Assembly (NCBI GenBank): GCA_014706385.1
Contig: JACGZH010000017.1
Location: 1-33,997, forward strand
Reading direction: 5' to 3'
DNA from: Phaffia rhodozyma
Lineage: Eukaryota; Basidiomycota; Tremellomycetes; Cystofilobasidiales; Mrakiaceae
Length of the DNA stretch: 33,997 nt
Shown: positions 1 to 29,228 of the stretch, piece after piece
Numbering within the stretch: position 1 is the first letter of the stretch
Layout of the letters: each line of letters opens with the position of its first letter
The notes under the pieces: generated by a model
Told to the model about the DNA's origin: nothing
The model's input: the letters and a program-made list of their open reading frames with translations, nothing else
Databases searched by the model: none
Translations under genes and position numbers: made by a program

Positions 1-39
1 GGTGGAACGGTCGTCATGGCCGGCTGCCAGCTTGTATGC

Positions 40-136
40 ATCAGGAAATCGCGGGTTCGAACCCCGTCTTGGTCTAGTGGTCCCACCACCCATTCGCTCT
101 GGCCGAGTGGCCCAGCGGTAAGGCGTCTGACTACGA
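40..136 (+). tRNA. trnR-ACG: circularly permuted tRNA-Arg(ACG), unit A
   Basis: The 3' half comes first. It gives A38 (40), anticodon-stem strand TCAGG (41-45), a 5-nt variable loop, the T-arm GCGGG/TTCGAAC/CCCGT (51-67), acceptor strand CTTGGTC (68-74) and T73 (75). A 25-nt linker (76-100) with a 5-bp hairpin (77-89) follows. The 5' half then gives acceptor strand GGCCGAG (101-107), the D-arm with GG at 117-118, stem TCTGA (126-130), C32-T33, anticodon ACG (133-135) and A37 (136). The halves pair 7/7 in the acceptor stem (two G-U) and 5/5 in the anticodon stem (one G-U). The body matches eukaryotic tRNA-Arg. In known permuted genes the transcript is spliced into a circle, then cut at the mature ends. 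All four copies are identical here, which argues against a broken pseudogene. The leader of this copy lies outside the window. Confidence 0.9.
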
Positions 137-154
137 GGATCTTTGCCTTCTTTT
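137..154 (+). terminator. trailer stem arm and Pol III terminator of permuted tRNA-Arg
   Basis: Directly after the 5' half, ATCTTTGCCTT (139-149) is the exact complement of AAGGCAAAGAT, found in the leader of the same gene in units B-D. A TTTT run (151-154) then ends the transcript. The position fits a transcript that covers leader, 3' half, linker, 5' half and trailer. Confidence 0.75.
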
Positions 155-9602: not shown

Positions 9603-9652
9603 AAGGCAAAGATGGTGGAACGGTCGTCATGGCCGGCTGCCAGCTTGTATGC
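9603..9652 (+). promoter_or_regulatory. leader of permuted tRNA-Arg: stem arm and A-box-like element, unit B
   Basis: AAGGCAAAGAT (9603-9613) is the exact complement of the trailer arm ATCTTTGCCTT (9752-9762). TGGTGGAACGG (9613-9623) matches the A-box form of neighbouring genes such as tRNA-Val (TGGTGTAACGG), and stands upstream of the B-box GGTTCGAACCC (9667-9677). This restores normal A-then-B order for a gene whose own A-box is downstream. CTTGTA just before the 3' half can pair with TACGAG at the end of the 5' half. Function inferred. Confidence 0.55.
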
Positions 9653-9749
9653 ATCAGGAAATCGCGGGTTCGAACCCCGTCTTGGTCTAGTGGTCCCACC
9701 ACCCATTCGCTCTGGCCGAGTGGCCCAGCGGTAAGGCGTCTGACTACGA
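9653..9749 (+). tRNA. trnR-ACG: circularly permuted tRNA-Arg(ACG), unit B
   Basis: Copy identical to 40-136. Here both leader (9603-9613) and trailer (9752-9762) arms are inside the window, so the full pre-tRNA fold can be seen. Confidence 0.9.
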
Positions 9750-9767
9750 GGATCTTTGCCTTCTTTT
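9750..9767 (+). terminator. trailer stem arm and TTTT terminator, unit B
   Basis: ATCTTTGCCTT (9752-9762) pairs with the leader arm 9603-9613. TTTT at 9764-9767. Confidence 0.75.
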
Positions 9768-9933
9768 GTTTTGGTCTTTCTGTTGTGTTGACACTGTGTT
9801 GCTGGTGCATTGCATTGCATGGTTGTGTTCTCGTTGTGTTCTCGCTATGTTTTTACTGTGTTGCCATTGTTATGCTGTTGTCTTTCTGCCATATGTCTTT
9901 TTCTCTTTCTATATTGATGCATCTATCGTTGAC

Positions 9934-10129
9934 AGAAAAAAAAGAAGAAAAAAGAAGAAAAAAGAAGAAAAAAGGAAAAGAGGGAAAAGAAGGGAAAAGA
10001 GGGGAAAAAAGAGGGGGAAAAAGAAGGGAAAAAAGAAGGGAAAAAAGAGGAAAAAAGAGGAAAAAAGAGGAAAGAAAAAGGACAAAGAAAAAACGGGAGA
10101 GGAAAAAGAAAAAAGAAAAAAAAAAAGAG
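9934..10129. repeat. long purine tract, unit B
   Basis: Counterpart of 321-452, 196 bases. The interval 9750-10262 holds no gene apart from this tract and the trailer. Confidence 0.9.
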
Positions 10130-10262
10130 TACACAGCATAGGGTAACAGCGGACGCTATGTGGCGGGTAATCCTATGAGTAGCACAGCAAGTAACACAGC
10201 AACTGACACAGCAAGTAACCCTACACCGACCACGCCACCCGCCCAGACGGGCCGAACAAAAA

Positions 10263-10356
10263 GGCGCGATTCCGGGATTGAACCGAAGACCTCCAAGAGA
10301 TGTGCACGGCAGAAAGTGTGCCCAAACTTGGCGTGATACCACTACACCAATCACGC
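10263..10356 (-). tRNA. trnP-TGG: tRNA-Pro(TGG) with intron, unit B
   Basis: Copy of 587-679 with one extra A in the intron (22 nt). Confidence 0.95.
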
Positions 10357-10498
10357 ACGATGGCAGCCCATCAGCCCGTCTGTCTGTCTGCCTGGCGGGG
10401 TGTGAGCATGCGGAGACAGCAAACACAGACAGCAAGGAAGGATCGACGCGACAGAAGGCAGAGAGAACGGAAGTGGGCAAAAAGAAAAAGAGAAAGGA

Positions 10499-10608
10499 CG
10501 ACCGCTGTAGGATTTGAACCTACGCCTTCAGAGAAGAGTAGCTGTCGCGTCGTCCCACAGAGGGGACTCGTTCGAGGCTACCGCGTTAGACCACTCCGCC
10601 AAACGGCC
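10499..10608 (-). tRNA. trnS-CGA: tRNA-Ser(CGA) with intron, unit B
   Basis: Copy of 822-931, same length and intron. Confidence 0.95.
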
Positions 10609-10765
10609 TTGGATGGACGCCGCTCGGTGAGCGGTGAGCACAAGCCGGTGGGCAGCAGACCAAGAGAAGACACACAGAACACGACACACAACATGCCATA
10701 TGAAATGCAACGAAATCAAATACGCCAAGATAAAACAAAACACACCGAAACACACCAAAAAGAGA

Positions 10766-10847
10766 TGGAGACTCCGGGAATCGAACCCAGGAATGACACA
10801 TGATCGACAGTGCGAAGCGTCCAGTTTACCAACTAGCCTAAATCCCC
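10766..10847 (-). tRNA. trnA-CGC: tRNA-Ala(CGC) with intron, unit B
   Basis: Copy of 1088-1169, same length and intron. Confidence 0.9.
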
Positions 10848-10881
10848 AGCTGCCCTGCCCCCCCGGCCGGGACAAAAGGAA

Positions 10882-10980
10882 TGATGAAGACGAGATTTGA
10901 ACTCGCGCCATTACTGACTGCGGTCTGGACTCGGAAGAGAGACCTAAACACAGCGCCTTAGACCACTCGGCCACTTCACC
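10882..10980 (-). tRNA. trnL-TAG: tRNA-Leu(TAG) with intron, unit B
   Basis: Copy of 1204-1302, same length and intron. Confidence 0.95.
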
Positions 10981-10996
10981 AGCATGCTTTCCCTGC

Positions 10997-11090
10997 GTTT
11001 GTGGTGTTGTTTGTGGTGTTGTTTGTGGTGTTGTTTGTGGTGTTGTTTGTGGTGTTGTTGTGGTGTGTGGTGGTGTGGTGCTGTGCTTTG
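10997..11090. repeat. expanded GT-rich 12-base repeat, unit B
   Basis: Counterpart of 1319-1379 with additional GTTTGTGGTGTT units. Confidence 0.85.
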
Positions 11091-11212
11091 TGCGGAACCC
11101 TAACGAGCACGCGTCGACCAGACGCCCGCCGGGACGACAGGGAAGGATACAACAGAAAAAGAAGAAGAAGAAATGAACGGAAATGAACGGAGAATAAAAA
11201 AAAAGAAGAATG

Positions 11213-11285
11213 TTCCTGCTAGCCGATTTGAACGACTGACCTCGACATTACTAGTGTCGCGCTCTACCAACTGAGCTAAGAAGGA
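11213..11285 (-). tRNA. trnT-AGT: tRNA-Thr(AGT), unit B
   Basis: Copy of 1502-1574, same length. Confidence 0.94.
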
Positions 11286-11476
11286 CGGTTGGTGTCCACC
11301 GAGCGCGTCGGTACGTCCTTCGTGTCCTGCCCCTGTGTCGGCACAGACGCACTGCTCGTCCGAACGGCAGCACACACCATCATCGCACCAGCCGGCGAGA
11401 CCGAACACGGACGATCGGCAGATGTGCACCCGCCAGCACAGAGCCGATCGGTGTGTGGGACGAGAAAAAAAAAGGA

Positions 11477-11547
11477 TACAACCGCGGGGAATCGAACCCC
11501 GGCCTAGTGCATGGCAAGCACCAATGATACCATTTCACCACAGCTGT
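11477..11547 (-). tRNA. trnG-GCC: tRNA-Gly(GCC), unit B
   Basis: Copy of 1766-1836, same length. Confidence 0.95.
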
Positions 11548-11718
11548 TGGATGCTGTACGGTCTGTTCATTCAGTCCACAGTCCAAAACGGACCGGCAGA
11601 CAGCAAGGGGGTGTGGCAGTGTTGCAACGTGGCATCATACTACCATGGCACCGCACCTGAGAGCACAGCCCGGCCAGGCAGACCCGAGAGGCACGGCCCG
11701 TGCCGGCCGGACAAAAAG

Positions 11719-11811
11719 TGATGAGGGCGAGATTCGAACTCGCGCCATTACTGACTGCGGGGCATAGAAAGAGCCTTAACACAGCGCCTTAGACCACTCG
11801 GCCACCTCACC
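11719..11811 (-). tRNA. trnL-AAG: tRNA-Leu(AAG) with intron, unit B
   Basis: Copy of 2008-2100, same length and intron. Confidence 0.95.
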
Positions 11812-12018
11812 TGGATGAGGGCCTGTCCGGCCGGTCGGCCAGTGTGCTCGCAGCAGCCGGCCTGTCTCGGTGCAACACATGGTGTGTGATGTGGTGGGCA
11901 GGACGGAGCATGACCGAGAGGAGCAGAGCGAAAGAAGAGAGTGCAAGAAAAGGCAGCGGGCGGAAAAAAAAAAAAAAAGACTACCAAAAAACACAAAAAA
12001 CAAAACGACACAAAAAAG

Positions 12019-12091
12019 TGGAGATTGTAAGAATCGAACTCACGACCTCAACCATGCTAAGATTGCGCTCTGCCAACTGAGCTAAATCCCC
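12019..12091 (-). tRNA. trnA-AGC: tRNA-Ala(AGC), unit B
   Basis: Copy of 2310-2382, same length. Confidence 0.96.
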
Positions 12092-12321
12092 GTGTGTGTC
12101 TGTCTGTCCGTGCTACCAGCCCAGATCGTCAGACATGCCCGCGCGACCCACCAGCCGACCCACCTCTCACCTCTGTTCAACCCTCCATGCACCCTTCCAC
12201 CGTCGACGGCCCACCAAGCGCACACCAAGCCAGCAAACAAAAACACAAAGAACGAAAACAGAAACAGAAACAGAAACAGAAACAGAAACAAAAAATCACA
12301 CCGACACACAAAAACGAAGCT

Positions 12322-12415
12322 AGCCCCATGGGGGGGTCGAACCCCCAGCCTTCAGATGCCAACTGTCAAGAGACTGGGTAAGAGTCTGACGCTCTACCGA
12401 TTGAGCTAACAGGGC
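12322..12415 (-). tRNA. trnK-CTT: tRNA-Lys(CTT) with intron, unit B
   Basis: Copy of 2607-2700, same length and intron. Confidence 0.95.
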
Positions 12416-12583
12416 GGTTATAGTCCCCAGCCCGGCCCGTACCCCTAGACACCAACGCCACCACCCAACTAGCCCCTCCCACGCCCCGGTCGTGTGCCTC
12501 AGAGTCTTGCCGCCGTCCGCCCAGTGTCTTGTACTGCCACCGCCTCCGCCCCCGCCACGCGCACAAAAAAAAAATGACAAAAA

Positions 12584-12655
12584 TGAGATGTAGGTGAATC
12601 GAACACCTGTCTCCAGAATGGAAATCTGGAATAATAACCATTATACGAACATCCC
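12584..12655 (-). tRNA. trnG-TCC: tRNA-Gly(TCC), unit B
   Basis: Copy of 2869-2940, same length. Confidence 0.94.
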
Positions 12656-12853
12656 GTTGATGGCAGGGTCCACATACATCAGTCCTATACCCTGCGCATA
12701 CAGTGCACACTCTACAGCCCGCCAGCATACCAAGCGTCTCACGTGTACACCCACATTCTCACCCACCTTCTCACTCACACCTCAACCACACCCCAACCAC
12801 ACCCCACTCACACCCCACTCACACCCCAACCACGCCCGCCGCAAAAAAAGAGA

Positions 12854-12939
12854 AACCCCGCCTGGGGATTGAACCCAGAATCTTCACCTCTCTCACCAGA
12901 CAGTAGGAAGGAGACGCGTTACCATTCTGCCAACGGGGC
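12854..12939 (-). tRNA. trnR-CCT: tRNA-Arg(CCT) with intron, unit B
   Basis: Copy of 3129-3214, same length; the T29-T41 mismatch is kept. Confidence 0.86.
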
Positions 12940-13048
12940 GTGTGTGTGCCCGGGCAGGGTGCACTCGCTCTACCCGGCCCACACTCCCGCACACTCCCGC
13001 ACACTCCCGCACACTCCCGGACCCACACACACCTCACGCACCCCATCC

Positions 13049-13130
13049 GGACAGATGGCCGAGCGGTCTAAGGCGTCAGACTCAAGTTCTGATATCGCAA
13101 GATGCGGGGGTTCGAATCCCCCTCTGTTCA
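13049..13130 (+). tRNA. trnL-CAA: tRNA-Leu(CAA), unit B
   Basis: Copy of 3304-3385, same length. Confidence 0.96.
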
Positions 13131-13304
13131 TCTTTTGCCCCCCGCCGAGAGGTTCCGTGTGGTTTTGCAACCAAGACTCTGTTTCTGATAGCATCATACC
13201 AGACCTCACCTCACCGCACCTTACCGCACCGCACCTTACCGCACCTCACCGCACCGCACCGCACTTCGCCCCACCGGCCGACACACCACGCCTCCATCCC
13301 ACAC

Positions 13305-13376
13305 GGGCTTATGGTGTAGTGGTATCACATTCGCTTTGCATGCGAAAGGCCGCGGGTTCAATCCCTGCTGGGTCCA
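13305..13376 (+). tRNA. trnA-TGC: tRNA-Ala(TGC), unit B
   Basis: Copy of 3535-3606, same length. Confidence 0.96.
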
Positions 13377-13516
13377 CTTTTTGCCGTCCGGTCGGAAGCA
13401 TGCTGACCGGCGGCCACCCGCTCACAGCCTACCGCACGACGGAGCAGGCTGCACACGACTGCGCACGACTGCAGACGACTGCAGACGACTCGACCGATTC
13501 GGCGTGCTTGTACTAG

Positions 13517-13589
13517 TCCTCATTGGTCAAACGGTTTACGATATCAGCTTTTCACGCTGAGGACCCGGGTTCGACTCCCGGATGGGGAA
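13517..13589 (+). tRNA. trnE-TTC: tRNA-Glu(TTC), unit B
   Basis: Copy of 3747-3819, same length. Confidence 0.96.
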
Positions 13590-13780
13590 CGATCCTTTTT
13601 GTTTTCTCCCCGGGCTGCCTCGTCTGAGGGCCAGCTTGTCGGCAGGCATGGTCCCGGTGTCGCACGATCGGGCTGATGGGCCGGCCGACCGATGGACACA
13701 CAGCGGCGGGCGGGCAGACGGCGGAGCGAGCGGTGCCTGGTCGATGAGTAGGATACTGGGCAGAGACCGGCAGTCATCAG

Positions 13781-13852
13781 AGTTGCATGGTGTAACGGTT
13801 ATCACTTGAGTCTAACACACTCACGACCCCAGTTCGACTCTGGGTGCGACTA
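13781..13852 (+). tRNA. trnV-AAC: tRNA-Val(AAC), unit B
   Basis: Copy of 4011-4082, same length. Confidence 0.95.
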
Positions 13853-14124
13853 CTCTTTTTGTTCTTTTTGCTCTTTTTTCTTGCTCTTTTTTCTTGCTCT
13901 TTTTTCTTGCTCTTTTTTCCTGTTCTTTTTTCTGCTCCTTTGTTCCTTTTGTTTTCTCTGTGCAGATGCAGCATCTGTGACGCCGGCCTGGTCGCACCGG
14001 GCGATGTTGCGTCCACAGCTGCCACTACTCGATCGCAGGACGACAAAGCGGCTGCCACTGTGCTGTGTGCATGTGTGCAAGCGTGCCTGTGGATGATCTG
14101 TCCGATGGCGCGGCAGCCTCATAC

Positions 14125-14197
14125 GGAGTTATAGCACAGCGGTAGTTGCGGCTGGTTGCAACCCAGCAGGTCCCTGGTTCAATCCCGGGTGACTCCT
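14125..14197 (+). tRNA. trnC-GCA: tRNA-Cys(GCA), unit B
   Basis: Copy of 4355-4427, same length. Confidence 0.96.
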
Positions 14198-14382
14198 TTT
14201 TTCTTGCCGGCCGAGCATGCTGGTGGAAGATGGATGATGTCCATCGCAAGAACATACCAAGAACACGCACACCTCATGGACGGCAGAAGACGAGAGGGGA
14301 AGTACTGCACAGGAAAGGGAGAGGGAAAAAAAATGAGGAGACAAAAAGACGACAAAAAGACGACAAAAAGACGACAAAAAGA

Positions 14383-14455
14383 CTGCCCCGTACGGGCTCG
14401 AACCGTAGACCTTGGAGTTAACAGCTCCACGCTCTACCAACTGAGCTACAGGGCA
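14383..14455 (-). tRNA. trnN-GTT: tRNA-Asn(GTT), unit B
   Basis: Copy of 4613-4685, same length. Confidence 0.96.
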
Positions 14456-14650
14456 TGGGATGGTCGCCTGCTGTGTCCGAGCACTCAGACAGCACACGCT
14501 GACGGTCAGTGCCCAGCATGTTTTGCCTGCCGCGTCAGCACACACACCGACCCGGCTGAGACCGACCGAGTGAGTGCCAGCCGGACGGCCCGACGGCCCG
14601 ACAGCCACCCAGACGGGCCATGGCCTGATGGACGGCGCTGACTGTCATCG

Positions 14651-14736
14651 GCCGTCATAGCTCAATTGGTGGAGCGTATGACTGAAGACATCTGTCCGCA
14701 ATCATAAGGTCGCCTGTTCGATTCAGGCTGACGGCA
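14651..14736 (+). tRNA. trnF-GAA: tRNA-Phe(GAA) with intron, unit B
   Basis: Copy of 4881-4966, same length and intron. Confidence 0.96.
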
Positions 14737-14959
14737 TCCCTTTTTTTTTCCGGTCCTCGCTCTGTGTGTCAGTGAGGATGGCTTCGATGGTGTGGCCGTC
14801 TTTTTTTTTTGTTTGGGCTGGCTGCCCGGTGTGTGCGTACTATGCATACATGAACGACAACCATAGACACACATAGGCAAAGGCATAGAAGAGAAGAAGA
14901 AGAAAAAAAAAAGCAAAAAGAGCAAAGGCCACGGTGGCAAAGTACAGGGTGCAAAAGAA

Positions 14960-15042
14960 AGCTGTCTGCAGGATTCGAACCTGCGCCCTCAAAGAGGAAG
15001 AGATTTCTAATCTCTCATCGTAGACCACTTGATTAAGACAGC
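14960..15042 (-). tRNA. trnS-AGA: tRNA-Ser(AGA), unit B
   Basis: Copy of 5189-5271, same length. The following 15043-15423 has no gene, only the repeats seen at 5272-5631. Confidence 0.94.
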
Positions 15043-15423
15043 GTATGGTCTCGGTCTGCCGATCGACTGCCCATAGCCTGTGCTCAACAGCCATCCAGCC
15101 AGTTGGTCTGCCCAGCGCACACGTGTCGGCGTGCTGTGCTGTGCTGTGCTGTGCTCGGTGCGTCTTTCGGAGCGTGTGCTGCCAAACATGCGCCGTCAAA
15201 GAGAGCAAAAGAAAAAGAAAGAGAAAAAGAAGGAGACATACAGACCAAAGAAAAAAAGATAACGATCGATGGCCGTCGACGGACAAACACAACAAAGCAA
15301 GACAACCATACAGCTGTACAGCAAAAGAGAATGGAAAGAAAAAATGCAAATGCAGATGCAAATGCAAATGCAAATGCAAGTACAAATGCAAGTACAAAAG
15401 AGAGGAGCAAAAGGCAAAAAGTG

Positions 15424-15495
15424 CTCCCGGACGGGGAGTCGAACCCCGGTCTCCCGCGTGACAGGCGGAAATCATAACCGTTAGACCATCCAAGA
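15424..15495 (-). tRNA. trnD-GTC: tRNA-Asp(GTC), unit B
   Basis: Copy of 5659-5730, same length. Confidence 0.96.
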
Positions 15496-15725
15496 GTCGG
15501 TTGGTTGTCAGCCTTGTCCGCTCGCCAGGTGGCTGGACAGCTGGCCGGTGCATGCACCCCATACCGTGCATTCAACCACACAGTACCCGCAGGCACACAC
15601 CAGCGCTGATACCAGTGGTCAGAACGGACATACAAAAACAAGACGAAACAGAAAGACGAAAGGAAAGAAGGACAAGGAAAAAAAGAAAAAAAGAAACGAG
15701 AGCAAAAGAAAAGACCAAAAGAGAG

Positions 15726-15797
15726 ATCCCCAACCGGGAGTCGAACCCGGGCCTACCGCGTGAGAGGCGGTTATCATAGCCGTTAGACAATTGAGGA
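15726..15797 (-). tRNA. trnE-CTC: tRNA-Glu(CTC), unit B
   Basis: Copy of 5961-6032, same length. Confidence 0.95.
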
Positions 15798-16006
15798 CTT
15801 GATGGCTGTCATCCGTGTCCAGACACCTTGTCCAGACAGCTTGTCCATGCGTCAGAGACGTCTCCACCGGGTGCACACATCGCTTGTCTGCTGCCGAGAA
15901 AGTGGCGGAGAGTGGCAAAAAGTGAGTGAAAAGTGGCAGAAAACAACGAAGAGCGACAGGAAGCGCTCGGGAAAAGGAAACAAAGAACGAAAGGAAAAGG
16001 AAAAAA

Positions 16007-16093
16007 GGCACGCTCCCAGGATTGAACTGAGGACCTCCATGAGACAAGGCGCAAAGACCCTAACATGGCGCGATACCACTACACCAAGCATGC
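16007..16093 (-). tRNA. trnP-AGG: tRNA-Pro(AGG) with intron, unit B
   Basis: Copy of 6242-6328, same length and intron. Confidence 0.95.
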
Positions 16094-16349
16094 ACGATGC
16101 CTCCCAGCCCAGCCCAGACACCATAGGCCCATGTCTGGTCGGACACTGTCCAGCACAGCCGGGTGTATATCTGCGTTCCCATCGTCGCCACTGCACCACC
16201 ACATCGTCACACCGTCACAACACTGCATCGCTCACCATGGAGCGTGCCAGTCGACAACAATGCCACACAGACCGCAACGGTCGAGAACAGGAGGGGTGCA
16301 AAAAAGATGGCAAAAAAAGATGGCGAAAATTAGAAAAAGAAAGAAAAAG

Positions 16350-16423
16350 TGATCAATGAGGGGGTCGAACCCGCGACCTTGGCGTTATTAGCACCACGCT
16401 CTAACCAACTGAGCTAATCGATC
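16350..16423 (-). tRNA. trnI-AAT: tRNA-Ile(AAT), unit B
   Basis: Copy of 6585-6658, same length. Confidence 0.95.
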
Positions 16424-16492
16424 CGATGACTGTCAGGCCCACCCGGCAGACCATGGCCAGGTGTACCGTCGGTCGCACCAGTCGATGGTGTG

Positions 16493-16578
16493 ACTGGCAT
16501 TGACACTGGCATTGGTAATGACACTGGTGCTGGCACTGGCATCGACACTGACGTCGACACTGACATCGACACCGGCAC
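16493..16578. repeat. contracted minisatellite, unit B
   Basis: Counterpart of 6728-6861 lacking two 24-base units. Confidence 0.9.
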
Positions 16579-16631
16579 GTGACCTGCGGCCGACACCACA
16601 TACACACTCCTCAGCCATGGTCTCCCATCAA

Positions 16632-16703
16632 TGCCAAGTAGCGCAGTGGAAGCGCGCCGGGCTCATAACCCGGAGGTCGCCTGATCGAGACGGGCCTTGG
16701 CAA
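16632..16703 (+). tRNA. trniM-CAT: initiator tRNA-Met(CAT), unit B
   Basis: Copy of 6915-6986, same length; U1-A72 is kept. Confidence 0.95.
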
Positions 16704-16860
16704 CATTGTCTTTTTGCTCGTTTTCCCTCGGTTTTTTCCCTGGCCCCCGTCCGGCCGTCCGTGCTGGAGGCCTGCAAGCCGGCCGCATGGTGCCACCGTC
16801 TGTACGGCCAGCCAGCCGGGCGCTCGACATACCCTCTGGGCACGGAGCCTCCGGGCAAGC

Positions 16861-16934
16861 GACCCATTAGCTCAGTTGGTAGCAGCGCAAGATTCCAAAT
16901 CTTGAGGTCATCCGTTCAAGTCGGGTATGGGTCT
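16861..16934 (+). tRNA. trnW-CCA: tRNA-Trp(CCA), unit B
   Basis: Copy of 7144-7217, same length. Confidence 0.95.
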
Positions 16935-17148
16935 TTTTTTGTTTTCCCGCCCGTCTGCCTGCCCCACCACAGGGAGCTGTGTCGACCTGGCTCGACCGTG
17001 GTGGACACGCGCACACAGGCCAGACCGGTCGGACAGACAGTGACCCACACAACGGCCGATAGAAACAGAGTGCAGAGAGAGCGTGCAGAGAAAAAGAAGG
17101 GCAAAAAGGAGGGCAAAAAAGAAAGGGGGACACAAAAAGTGAACATTT

Positions 17149-17247
17149 AGACCGATGTCGGGATCGAACCGACGACCAGCAGCGAGCGAAGACGACCTTG
17201 CGGACGAGTACCGAAAACTGCTGTGATAGCCACTACACCAATCGGCC
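17149..17247 (-). tRNA. trnR-TCG: tRNA-Arg(TCG) with intron, unit B
   Basis: Copy of 7432-7530, same length and intron. Confidence 0.94.
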
Positions 17248-17469
17248 AGATATGATCACTTGCCCTGCCCCGGTGACCACTACATCGGCAGCAGCAGCTG
17301 GGAGAACGTCATCGGTCGCATCGCCCGTCTGGCCGAGACAGTGCGCATGCTGCGTGAGAGCGACCGGACTGGACCGAAGGCAGGAACCCTAGCAGTCAAA
17401 GAGGAAGCAGCCACAAGGCAGAAAAAAAAGAACAAAAAAGAACAAAAAGCAAAAGGCAAAAAAACAAGA

Positions 17470-17556
17470 TCGCCGCTCTCGGGATCGAACCGAGTGCCTT
17501 CGGTGAACAAGTGTATCCTTTACAAACCAACGCTCTTCCAGATGAGCTAAGCGGCG
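17470..17556 (-). tRNA. trnY-GTA: tRNA-Tyr(GTA) with intron, unit B
   Basis: Copy of 7752-7838, same length and intron. Confidence 0.97.
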
Positions 17557-17798
17557 GGTATGGTGCCAGCACCGTTTGTCCGGATAGATTCTCGTCCAAG
17601 CGGACTCTGCGCAGCAGCAGTCGTCGTCGTCATCAGCACTGCCGACGCCACCGCCACCGCCACCGCCGCCACTTCCACTGCCGTCATGCTCAGCCCATCT
17701 GACGGCCGGATCCGACCGCACCTCCGCCTGGCCCAGCCCGGCCGCCCACCAACCATCAGGAAGGATGGGAAACACAGCAAAAGAGGAAAAAAAAGAGT

Positions 17799-17885
17799 TG
17801 CCCAGAGCGAGAATCGAACTCGCGGCTGAGGATCACACTCGGGTGACGGTATGAGACCTACGTTTTACCACTAAACTACCCAGGC
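17799..17885 (-). tRNA. trnM-CAT: elongator tRNA-Met(CAT) with intron, unit B
   Basis: Copy of 8081-8167, same length and intron. Confidence 0.85.
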
Positions 17886-18036
17886 ACGTTGACTGCCCAG
17901 CCGCCCCGGCGGTCGACCTCGATGGGCTACGTCTGGCCGAGCGGACGGTGTGGGCCGGGTCCTGACCACACCGGTACACCAACACATCGACACACCAACA
18001 CCCTTAGAGACAACACGACCGGGCGACGGGCACCAG

Positions 18037-18109
18037 GCCCGAATAGCTAAGTGGTTATAGTGCGCCGCTCGTAACGGTGAGGTCCGTGGTTCAAATCCGC
18101 GTTTGGGCT
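18037..18109 (+). tRNA. trnT-CGT: tRNA-Thr(CGT), unit B
   Basis: Copy of 8319-8391, same length. Confidence 0.94.
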
Positions 18110-18301
18110 TGCTTTTTGCTCCGATGTCCGCTGTGTGTATCGGGTCGGCCGTGCGTGTCATGCCGGCCGGGCCACGTGCGGCGGGCGGACAGGTCGGCCA
18201 GCGATGTAAGCACACCTGCCAGCGGACACGCGCCGACGGACCCTTGCCAGCGGACACACCGCCAGAACGAGACTCGCGAGGGCAATAGGCCGACAACGAC
18301 C

Positions 18302-18384
18302 GGTTCTATGGTGAAGTTGGTTATCACGCGAGATTCTGATTGACTCACCTTCTCGAATCCCCAGTTCGAATCTGAGTAGGACCT
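18302..18384 (+). tRNA. trnQ-CTG: tRNA-Gln(CTG) with intron, unit B
   Basis: Copy of 8584-8666, same length and intron. Confidence 0.94.
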
Positions 18385-18557
18385 TTCCTTTTTTTTCGCC
18401 CTCTTTTTCCCGTCCTCCCTCCTGCCGCCTGTGCCGTCTTCTGTCGGACTCGGCCCGGTCTGGCGTGTGCCGTCCGGTGCGGCCTTCTCTCGTCCTGTCT
18501 CGTCCTGTCTCGTCCTGTCTTGTCATCTCTCGTCTTTTTCCACCGACGCTTACCTTT

Positions 18558-18655
18558 ACTCCATTGGCGAAGTGGTTATCGCATTGTTCTTATAGGTTGC
18601 CGTCCGTGCCTCTAGTGCTTAACAAGGATCATGAGTTCGAACCTCATATGGAGTA
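18558..18655 (+). tRNA. trnI-TAT: tRNA-Ile(TAT) with intron, unit B
   Basis: Copy of 8840-8937, same length and intron. Confidence 0.96.
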
Positions 18656-18733
18656 TCTTTTGCCTCCCGGACGGACGGACGGACGGCCGGCTGGAGACCG
18701 ACAAACTGACCGGCCAGGCCTGTGCGATCACTG

Positions 18734-18833
18734 GCGGGATTGGTGTAGTGGTATCACGCCGTCTTCGGGCTTTGCTGGCTCGCATGAAACACGTGTCTGA
18801 CGGAGGTCCTCGGTTCAATCCCGGGATCGCGCC
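18734..18833 (+). tRNA. trnP-CGG: tRNA-Pro(CGG) with intron, unit B
   Basis: Copy of 9016-9115, same length; the G4-G69 mismatch is kept. Confidence 0.94.
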
Positions 18834-19060
18834 TTGTCTTTTTGCCGACCTGGCTTTTATCTTGTATCTTTTGTCTTTTGTCTTTTGTCTTTTGTCTTTA
18901 TCGCCATCTTATCTTCTTTCTTTCTTGCCGATCGATCGTGTCTGTCGATCTTATCTGCCATCTCTGTCGGCTGGCTGTGTATCTTATCATGCATCTTATC
19001 TTGCGATGGCTTCTCTCGGTCTGTCCATCGTGGGCGTGTGCTGAGGGCAAAAAGACGTCA

Positions 19061-19144
19061 TGGTCACCGCCAGGATCGAACTGGCGACCTATTGCGCACC
19101 GGGTGAGATGTGAAGCAAGCGTCATACCACTAGACCAGGCGACC
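19061..19144 (-). tRNA. trnV-CAC: tRNA-Val(CAC) with intron, unit B
   Basis: Copy of 9336-9419, same length and intron. Confidence 0.93.
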
Positions 19145-19327
19145 GATCGACACGGCCTTTTCTCCGCCGGGCTCCGTACTCCGGGGCTCGACGTCCGACG
19201 TCCGACGTCCGATATCCGATGGGCGATCGGACGGATCGGCCGGACGCCCACCGCCTCGGATAACCCTAGCAGAGCCAACGCCCACACATCCACTTGGCCA
19301 TACATCCACACAACCAGACGAAAGCTA

Positions 19328-19377
19328 AAGGCAAAGATGGTGGAACGGTCGTCATGGCCGGCTGCCAGCTTGTATGC
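19328..19377 (+). promoter_or_regulatory. leader of permuted tRNA-Arg, unit C
   Basis: Same leader as 9603-9652: stem arm 19328-19338 and A-box-like TGGTGGAACGG directly after it. Confidence 0.55.
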
Positions 19378-19474
19378 ATCAGGAAATCGCGGGTTCGAAC
19401 CCCGTCTTGGTCTAGTGGTCCCACCACCCATTCGCTCTGGCCGAGTGGCCCAGCGGTAAGGCGTCTGACTACGA
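19378..19474 (+). tRNA. trnR-ACG: circularly permuted tRNA-Arg(ACG), unit C
   Basis: Copy identical to 40-136. Confidence 0.9.
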
Positions 19475-19492
19475 GGATCTTTGCCTTCTTTT
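19475..19492 (+). terminator. trailer stem arm and TTTT terminator, unit C
   Basis: Stem arm complementary to 19328-19338, then TTTT at 19489-19492. Confidence 0.75.
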
Positions 19493-29063: not shown

Positions 29064-29113
29064 AAGGCAAAGATGGTGGAACGGTCGTCATGGCCGGCTG
29101 CCAGCTTGTATGC
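29064..29113 (+). promoter_or_regulatory. leader of permuted tRNA-Arg, unit D
   Basis: Same leader as 9603-9652: stem arm 29064-29074 and the A-box-like element after it. Confidence 0.55.
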
Positions 29114-29210
29114 ATCAGGAAATCGCGGGTTCGAACCCCGTCTTGGTCTAGTGGTCCCACCACCCATTCGCTCTGGCCGAGTGGCCCAGCGGTAAGGCGT
29201 CTGACTACGA
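29114..29210 (+). tRNA. trnR-ACG: circularly permuted tRNA-Arg(ACG), unit D
   Basis: Copy identical to 40-136. Confidence 0.9.
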
Positions 29211-29228
29211 GGATCTTTGCCTTCTTTT
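29211..29228 (+). terminator. trailer stem arm and TTTT terminator, unit D
   Basis: Stem arm complementary to 29064-29074, then TTTT at 29225-29228. Confidence 0.75.

Follow-up and report, generated by a model that had tools for sequence, protein, structure and literature searches.

A probable circularly permuted tRNA-Arg(ACG) gene in the tandem tRNA array of the yeast Phaffia rhodozyma

Can a tRNA gene whose two halves are encoded in reverse order serve the nucleus of a fungus? The question is raised by a locus of Phaffia rhodozyma (syn. Xanthophyllomyces dendrorhous), a basidiomycete yeast of the Tremellomycetes, Cystofilobasidiales, at which the 3′ half of a tRNA-Arg(ACG) precedes the 5′ half. 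Judged from its sequence, the locus is very probably a working nuclear gene, circularly permuted in the type II manner with its junction between nucleotides 37 and 38, carried by the units of a tandem array and probably the only kind of gene that the cell has for this tRNA. Permuted tRNA genes have been recorded from algae, from a relict algal nucleus (nucleomorph) and from one archaeon (PMC3978253, which is cited, like PMC4404019 and PMC12633428, for selected parts), and none from a fungus was found in the open-access literature that we searched.

Order, fold and identity of the two halves

The window, by which we mean the whole 33,997-nucleotide stretch of DNA analysed here, is the whole of contig C6; along it a 9.7-kb unit occurs about three and a half times. 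Our script parsed 32 conventional tRNA genes in the unit; tRNA-Ala(CGC), which Rfam recognizes and which we parsed by hand, is one more, and the permuted gene brings the total to 34. Lying on both strands, these genes serve 19 of the 20 amino acids, and the unit is repeated more than 40 times in the assembly. A tRNA-His(GTG) was not found in the unit at 9604–19328 by our own scan or by ARAGORN.

At the permuted locus, the 3′ half, a 25-nt linker (the known range is 1–74 nt) and the 5′ half follow one another on one strand, which is the type II layout. A sequence-only reading had placed the halves of the first copy at 40–75 and 101–136, on either side of a linker at 76–100, and had counted the gene four times. 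This layout is borne out, and the four copies in the window are exact, with 3′ halves that begin at 40, 9653, 19378 and 29114. The features of the four copies, read from the sequence unless another basis is given, are listed below.

1..39, +, leader, copy 1; its first 10 nt are missing at the contig start
40..75, +, 3′ half of tRNA-Arg(ACG), nucleotides 38–73, copy 1
76..100, +, linker of 25 nt, from 3′ end to 5′ end, copy 1
101..136, +, 5′ half of tRNA-Arg(ACG), nucleotides 1–37, copy 1
137..148, +, trailer, copy 1
9604..9652, +, leader, copy 2, 49 nt; its first 10 nt and the last 10 of the trailer are exactly complementary
9613..9625, +, A box within the leader, copy 2, score 13.2 (A-box scoring against spacer positions)
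9653..9688, +, 3′ half, copy 2
9667..9677, +, B box inside the 3′ half (nucleotides 52–62), copy 2, 54 nt past the start of the leader A box (box scoring)
9689..9713, +, linker, copy 2, without a T4 run
9714..9749, +, 5′ half, copy 2, with its own A box at 9721 (sequence and box scoring)
9750..9761, +, trailer, copy 2, with the 10-nt complement of the leader at its end
9764..9767, +, first T4 run past the 5′ half, likely Pol III terminator, copy 2 (T-run scan)
19329..19377, +, leader, copy 3
19378..19413, +, 3′ half, copy 3
19414..19438, +, linker, copy 3
19439..19474, +, 5′ half, copy 3
19475..19486, +, trailer, copy 3
29065..29113, +, leader, copy 4
29114..29149, +, 3′ half, copy 4
29150..29174, +, linker, copy 4
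29175..29210, +, 5′ half, copy 4
29211..29222, +, trailer, copy 4

When 101–136 is rejoined to 40–75 and set between artificial flanks, ARAGORN calls tRNA-Arg(acg). The rejoined molecule has an acceptor stem of 7/7 pairs (two G-U), an anticodon stem of 5/5 (one G-U), a T stem of 5/5 (one G-U) and a D stem of three pairs, and G18G19, U33 and A37 are present. By ARAGORN and by the score of the covariance model described below, it therefore has the canonical cloverleaf with eukaryotic consensus nucleotides; both the full cloverleaf and the Arg(ACG) isotype claimed by the earlier reading are confirmed, as is the T73 that it shares with Arg(TCG) and Arg(CCT) of the unit. Joining position 136 to 40 gives the anticodon loop CUACGAA, with the junction at 37/38; in the other register, 137 to 41, the loop would be CUACGAG. 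Order, fold, isotype and copy number are thus all supported as first read. Two features described below, the leader A box and the perfect complement that leader and trailer form, are new and lie beyond the coordinates of that reading.

Detection of the permuted gene

A structural scan for permuted tRNAs, run on both strands of the window and allowing a variable loop of 3–23 nt, gave four matches with perfect acceptor, anticodon and T stems, all of them the tRNA-Arg(ACG) gene. Four poor matches on the minus strand, each combining a Lys T arm with spacer (anticodon stem 4/5, variable loop of 3), are counted as chance. In 60 first-order Markov sequences, the scan returned 0.067 matches per window and none with perfect stems; this null was scanned with variable loops of 4–5 only and is less permissive than the real scan.

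The earlier reading had also proposed that the rejoined halves be scored in software, as was done with ARAGORN. To score the permuted order itself, we artificially rotated 18 conventional tRNAs of the unit and built a covariance model from them, with tRNA-Arg(ACG) left out. The permuted gene scores 52.3 bits (E = 5.5e-15, on a rough calibration). Among 161 matches up to E = 1, all except the four gene copies score at most 27.3 bits, which is the value of the next-best match. In the unit's spacers, neither the structural scan nor the rotated model revealed any convincing further tRNA, whether cryptic or permuted; a few lone A-box-like and B-box-like stretches lie there.

Standard tools miss the gene. 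The Rfam tRNA model, which reports 27 tRNAs in the same unit, does not report the permuted locus (16.3 bits against a gathering threshold of 29), nor does ARAGORN on the unmodified window. That both pass over a tRNA that is probably essential is a warning for annotation.

Putative promoter and terminator signals

How might such a gene be transcribed? The leader contains an A box, TGGTGGAACGGTC, at 9613, the score of which (13.2) falls among those of the 32 real A boxes of the unit (8.8–17.8) and is reached at none of 12312 spacer positions on both strands. From this box to the B box in the 3′ half the distance is 54 nt, compared with 42 to 81 nt in the 32 unit genes, 9 of which lie at 53–58 nt. 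Because the A box sits in the leader, the ordinary order of A box and then B box is restored, and the two boxes are likely to form the Pol III promoter of the gene. Around the conventional genes of the unit we saw no conserved upstream motif (the top hexamer occurs in 7/32), and only one of the 32 has a TATA-like stretch within 50 nt upstream.

A second A-box-like stretch, at 9683–9695 and in the other copies, scores 15.5 and reaches from the acceptor end of the 3′ half into the linker; no B box lies at a suitable distance downstream of it within the locus. As for the origin of the leader, homology to the 5′ half beyond the A box is unsupported, given that 797 of 2000 shuffled leaders align equally well, and an origin by tandem duplication from an intron-bearing gene therefore stays a guess.

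Leader, 3′ half, linker and 5′ half are free of T4 runs, the first of which stands 14 nt beyond the 5′ half. A linker without a terminator, followed by a T run past the 5′ half, is what the sequence of a single transcription unit should contain. In the conventional genes of the unit a run of T4–T9 occurs 0–10 nt downstream in all 32 parsed, so that the terminator-like T4 of the permuted gene is short and lies farther out than in the 32 others.

Predicted leader–trailer pairing and splice junction

The 49-nt leader starts with AGGCAAAGAT and the 12-nt trailer ends with ATCTTTGCCT, which form a perfect 10-bp complement. Counting the next base, the complement extends to 11 bp, a length reached at 2 of 1358 other unit positions of the same geometry. 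The energy of the flank duplex alone is unremarkable (284 of the 1358 positions are as low). When the precursor is held to the cloverleaf, its predicted energy is -54.6 kcal/mol with the real flanks; shuffled flanks average -42.6 (sd 3.0), and none of 500 was as low.

The junction itself is less regular. The anticodon–intron (A-I) pair, between nucleotide 32 and intron position -3, is C-U at the permuted junction and thus no standard pair. Among the 15 intron genes that our script parsed in the unit, 13 have a standard 32:-3 pair; Arg(CCT) shows one when parsed by hand, and Met, the last of the 15, was left unscored. tRNA-Met(CAT), at 17799–17885 on the minus strand, carries a long insert, and its anticodon stem pairs poorly in the parse. 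The canonical pair is also missing, by hand parse, from tRNA-Ala(CGC) (10766–10847, minus strand), which has a short intron. Instead of 32:-3, nucleotides 33–37 of the permuted gene and the first trailer base are able to pair with the leader (33:-4, 34:-5 and 35:-6 are possible). Because this pairing is available and the A-I pair is missing, the predicted junction motif is unusual and differs from the usual bulge-helix-bulge (BHB) type. The weak point of the permuted-gene reading is the endonuclease cut itself.

Folding predictions add a caution. The free fold of the precursor (-64.2) is lower than the fold with the cloverleaf imposed (-54.6), so that the cloverleaf is not predicted to be favoured, and the circle is predicted at -30.7 when free and at -13.7 as the bare cloverleaf. 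For the mature tRNA the values are -23.1 and -20.3, an ordinary gap that 23 of 30 conventional unit tRNAs equal or exceed; this control covers the mature form.

Array copies and the search for an ordinary gene

The assembly that we searched comprises 19.77 Mb in 15 contigs, several of which end in TTAGGG repeats. Its assignment to P. rhodozyma rests on heat-shock protein 90: over a piece of 444 residues the protein encoded there shows 100% identity to that of P. rhodozyma, with Mrakia frigida next at 86%, and the telomere repeats agree with this host. The array lies at an end of five large contigs and on four small contigs (C4–C7 and C9–C13); no prior description of a tRNA array in P. rhodozyma was found in the open-access literature searched. 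A permuted gene inside a tandem tRNA array had been put forward as new; this understated the novelty, as the host is a fungus rather than an alga.

The array could also have spread a casualty. A tRNA gene broken by rearrangement might have been multiplied by array homogenisation and be dead, with an ordinary Arg(ACG) gene elsewhere doing its work; we regard this as improbable, and it is the alternative that survives best. The missing A-I pair would suit it, and so would the homogenised state of the array, in which the identity of copies is no proof of use. With four further copies from fetched loci, the assembly holds 44 permuted copies, 43 of which could be read whole through the core, one being cut by the end of its locus. 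Across 97 nt, 39 of these 43 cores are identical; the remaining four have small insertions or deletions, mostly in single-base runs, that could be sequencing errors. Among the three full units (40 to 29113), the stretch from the 3′ half through the trailer varies in 0 of 109 columns; among spacer windows 158 columns wide, 543 of 1891 show no variation either. Copy identity was therefore rejected as proof of selection and is weak evidence, because the array is homogenised. A comparison of column classes is harder to reconcile with a dead gene: tRNA columns vary in 1/2738 and spacer columns in 337/7093. The stems of the permuted gene are all intact, its flanks are complementary, and its promoter boxes and terminator are suitably placed.

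A dead gene would also require a living one. The earlier reading had found no ordinary Arg(ACG) gene in the array unit, a result upheld by our own scan and by ARAGORN, and had proposed to look for one in the genome. We did so by whole-genome DNA search and with anticodon/T-arm patterns, and no contiguous match was found. The 72 letters of the joined tRNA gave 80 matches at 40 places (the best 40 of 44 candidates scored), all split in the permuted order and none contiguous. A pattern that combines YTACGR with the T arm GGTTCRANYCC, spaced as in an ordinary gene or one with a short intron, gave 83 matches, 79 of them at array positions; these are D arms of Ser-AGA and Glu-TTC where the letters were printed, those from contig C10 on being assigned by position. 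Of the four off-array matches, one was identified, as an intron of Lys(TTT); the other three, and the limits of the search, leave some room for a dead gene. A pattern with longer gaps gave 20 matches, compared with 23 in the control, and looser anticodon/T-arm patterns showed no ordinary Arg(ACG) among the matches listed; such searches could miss a divergent Arg(ACG) with an unusual T arm or an intron of more than about 60 nt. Eight of the 20 longer-gap matches are one dispersed tRNA-like stretch. Near-identical stretches of this kind lie at seven places on contig C1 and at C9:1018798, and are possibly a tRNA-derived mobile element or scattered tRNA copies.

These sequence searches make it probable that P. 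rhodozyma has no kind of gene for tRNA-Arg(ACG) other than the permuted one. With A34 converted to inosine, its tRNA would read CGU, CGC and CGA. P. rhodozyma uses CGU and CGC, and CGA is the top arginine codon in the sets tabulated in PMC4404019.

Two further explanations are each very improbable. If a 5′ half were joined across a giant intron to the 3′ half of the next unit, the gene would be in ordinary order after all, and a 5′ half followed by a 3′ half does recur along the array; the interval, however, is 9628 nt long, with 41 runs of at least T4 (11 of at least T6), and encloses more than 30 other tRNA genes on both strands, and leader and trailer are complementary around the permuted order. 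At that distance and with those runs, an ordinary intron-containing gene was rejected as lying beyond what could be transcribed. Nor is the locus likely to encode a structural RNA that only resembles a permuted tRNA, as the bacterial Y RNAs of the YrlA type do: the YrlA family (RF02553) has a permuted tRNA-like part and paired ends, and its model aligns over the locus in the same order, but at 18.0 bits (E = 0.22) the match is far under the gathering threshold of 69, the locus has a perfect anticodon arm (U33, ACG, A37), and our searches yielded no second Arg(ACG) gene.

Proposed pathway and implications

For the permuted gene, we propose a route modelled largely on that of algae, in which a linear precursor undergoes BHB cleavage, a circle forms, the linker is removed, possibly by RNase P and tRNase Z, and CCA is added (PMC3978253, in the parts used). 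Pol III, directed by the leader A box together with the B box in the 3′ half, would make a single RNA that runs from the leader through 3′ half, linker and 5′ half to the trailer. Leader–trailer pairing, suggested by the complementarity, would bring the ends together in the manner of an intron hairpin. By analogy with the algal pathway, the tRNA splicing endonuclease would then cut before nucleotide 38 and after nucleotide 37, tRNA ligase would join the tRNA ends into a circle, and RNase P and RNase Z would excise the 25-nt linker before CCA addition. Matches to Pfam domains for parts of this machinery are present in the genome: splicing endonuclease domains at two places, the T4-type RNA ligase domain as in fungal tRNA ligase, the Tau95 domain, and the B-block TFIIIC domain, which is unspecific, matching also in 4/14 prokaryote controls.

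If the permuted-gene reading is true, permutation can arise and become fixed under ordinary eukaryotic machinery, in a yeast whose genome has matches to TFIIIC, splicing endonuclease and fungal-type ligase domains. The leader A box would then suggest, in concrete terms, how a permuted gene may be transcribed. We lean towards a fuller account: that this is the first permuted tRNA gene of a fungus, and indeed of an opisthokont; that it has kept an ordinary Pol III promoter, in which a surrogate A box in the leader works with the 3′-half B box, an arrangement that would result if, in a duplicated pair of tRNA genes, the upstream one had shed its coding 5′ half and retained its promoter; and that the cell depends on its more than 40 copies for CGU and CGC. 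The host is a cultivable yeast in which gene deletions are feasible, and the circular-intermediate pathway would thereby be open to testing.

Comparison with known permuted genes

The permuted genes of the green alga Auxenochlorella share the permuted order and came to light after an incomplete tRNAscan-SE set, as described in the parts of PMC12633428 cited here; the present host is not an alga. With the red alga Cyanidioschyzon merolae, the P. rhodozyma gene shares the order of its halves, an expected BHB-type cut and an expected circular intermediate. According to the passages of PMC3978253 on C. merolae, most permuted genes there have TATA-like boxes upstream, the A and B boxes, being reversed, are regarded as ill suited to TFIIIC, and no homologue of TFC1 or TFC3 was identified. 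P. rhodozyma, by contrast, has TFIIIC domain matches, a leader A box and a TATA-like stretch in just 1 of 32 unit genes. The same source ties the survival of permuted genes to transcription from upstream promoters and, in C. merolae, also to an endonuclease of broad specificity.

Further close counterparts are the type II genes known from green algae and from the nucleomorph of Bigelowiella natans, as given in Table 1 and other selected parts of PMC3978253. In those genes, too, the 3′ half comes first and the junction is at 37/38, and the P. rhodozyma linker falls inside their reported range of 1 to 74 nt and lacks a terminator, with a T run past the 5′ half. The P. rhodozyma gene differs from them in its isotype, as Arg(ACG) is absent from that table, in the missing A-I pair of its hBH motif, and in its fungal host, its 44 assembled array copies and its leader A box.
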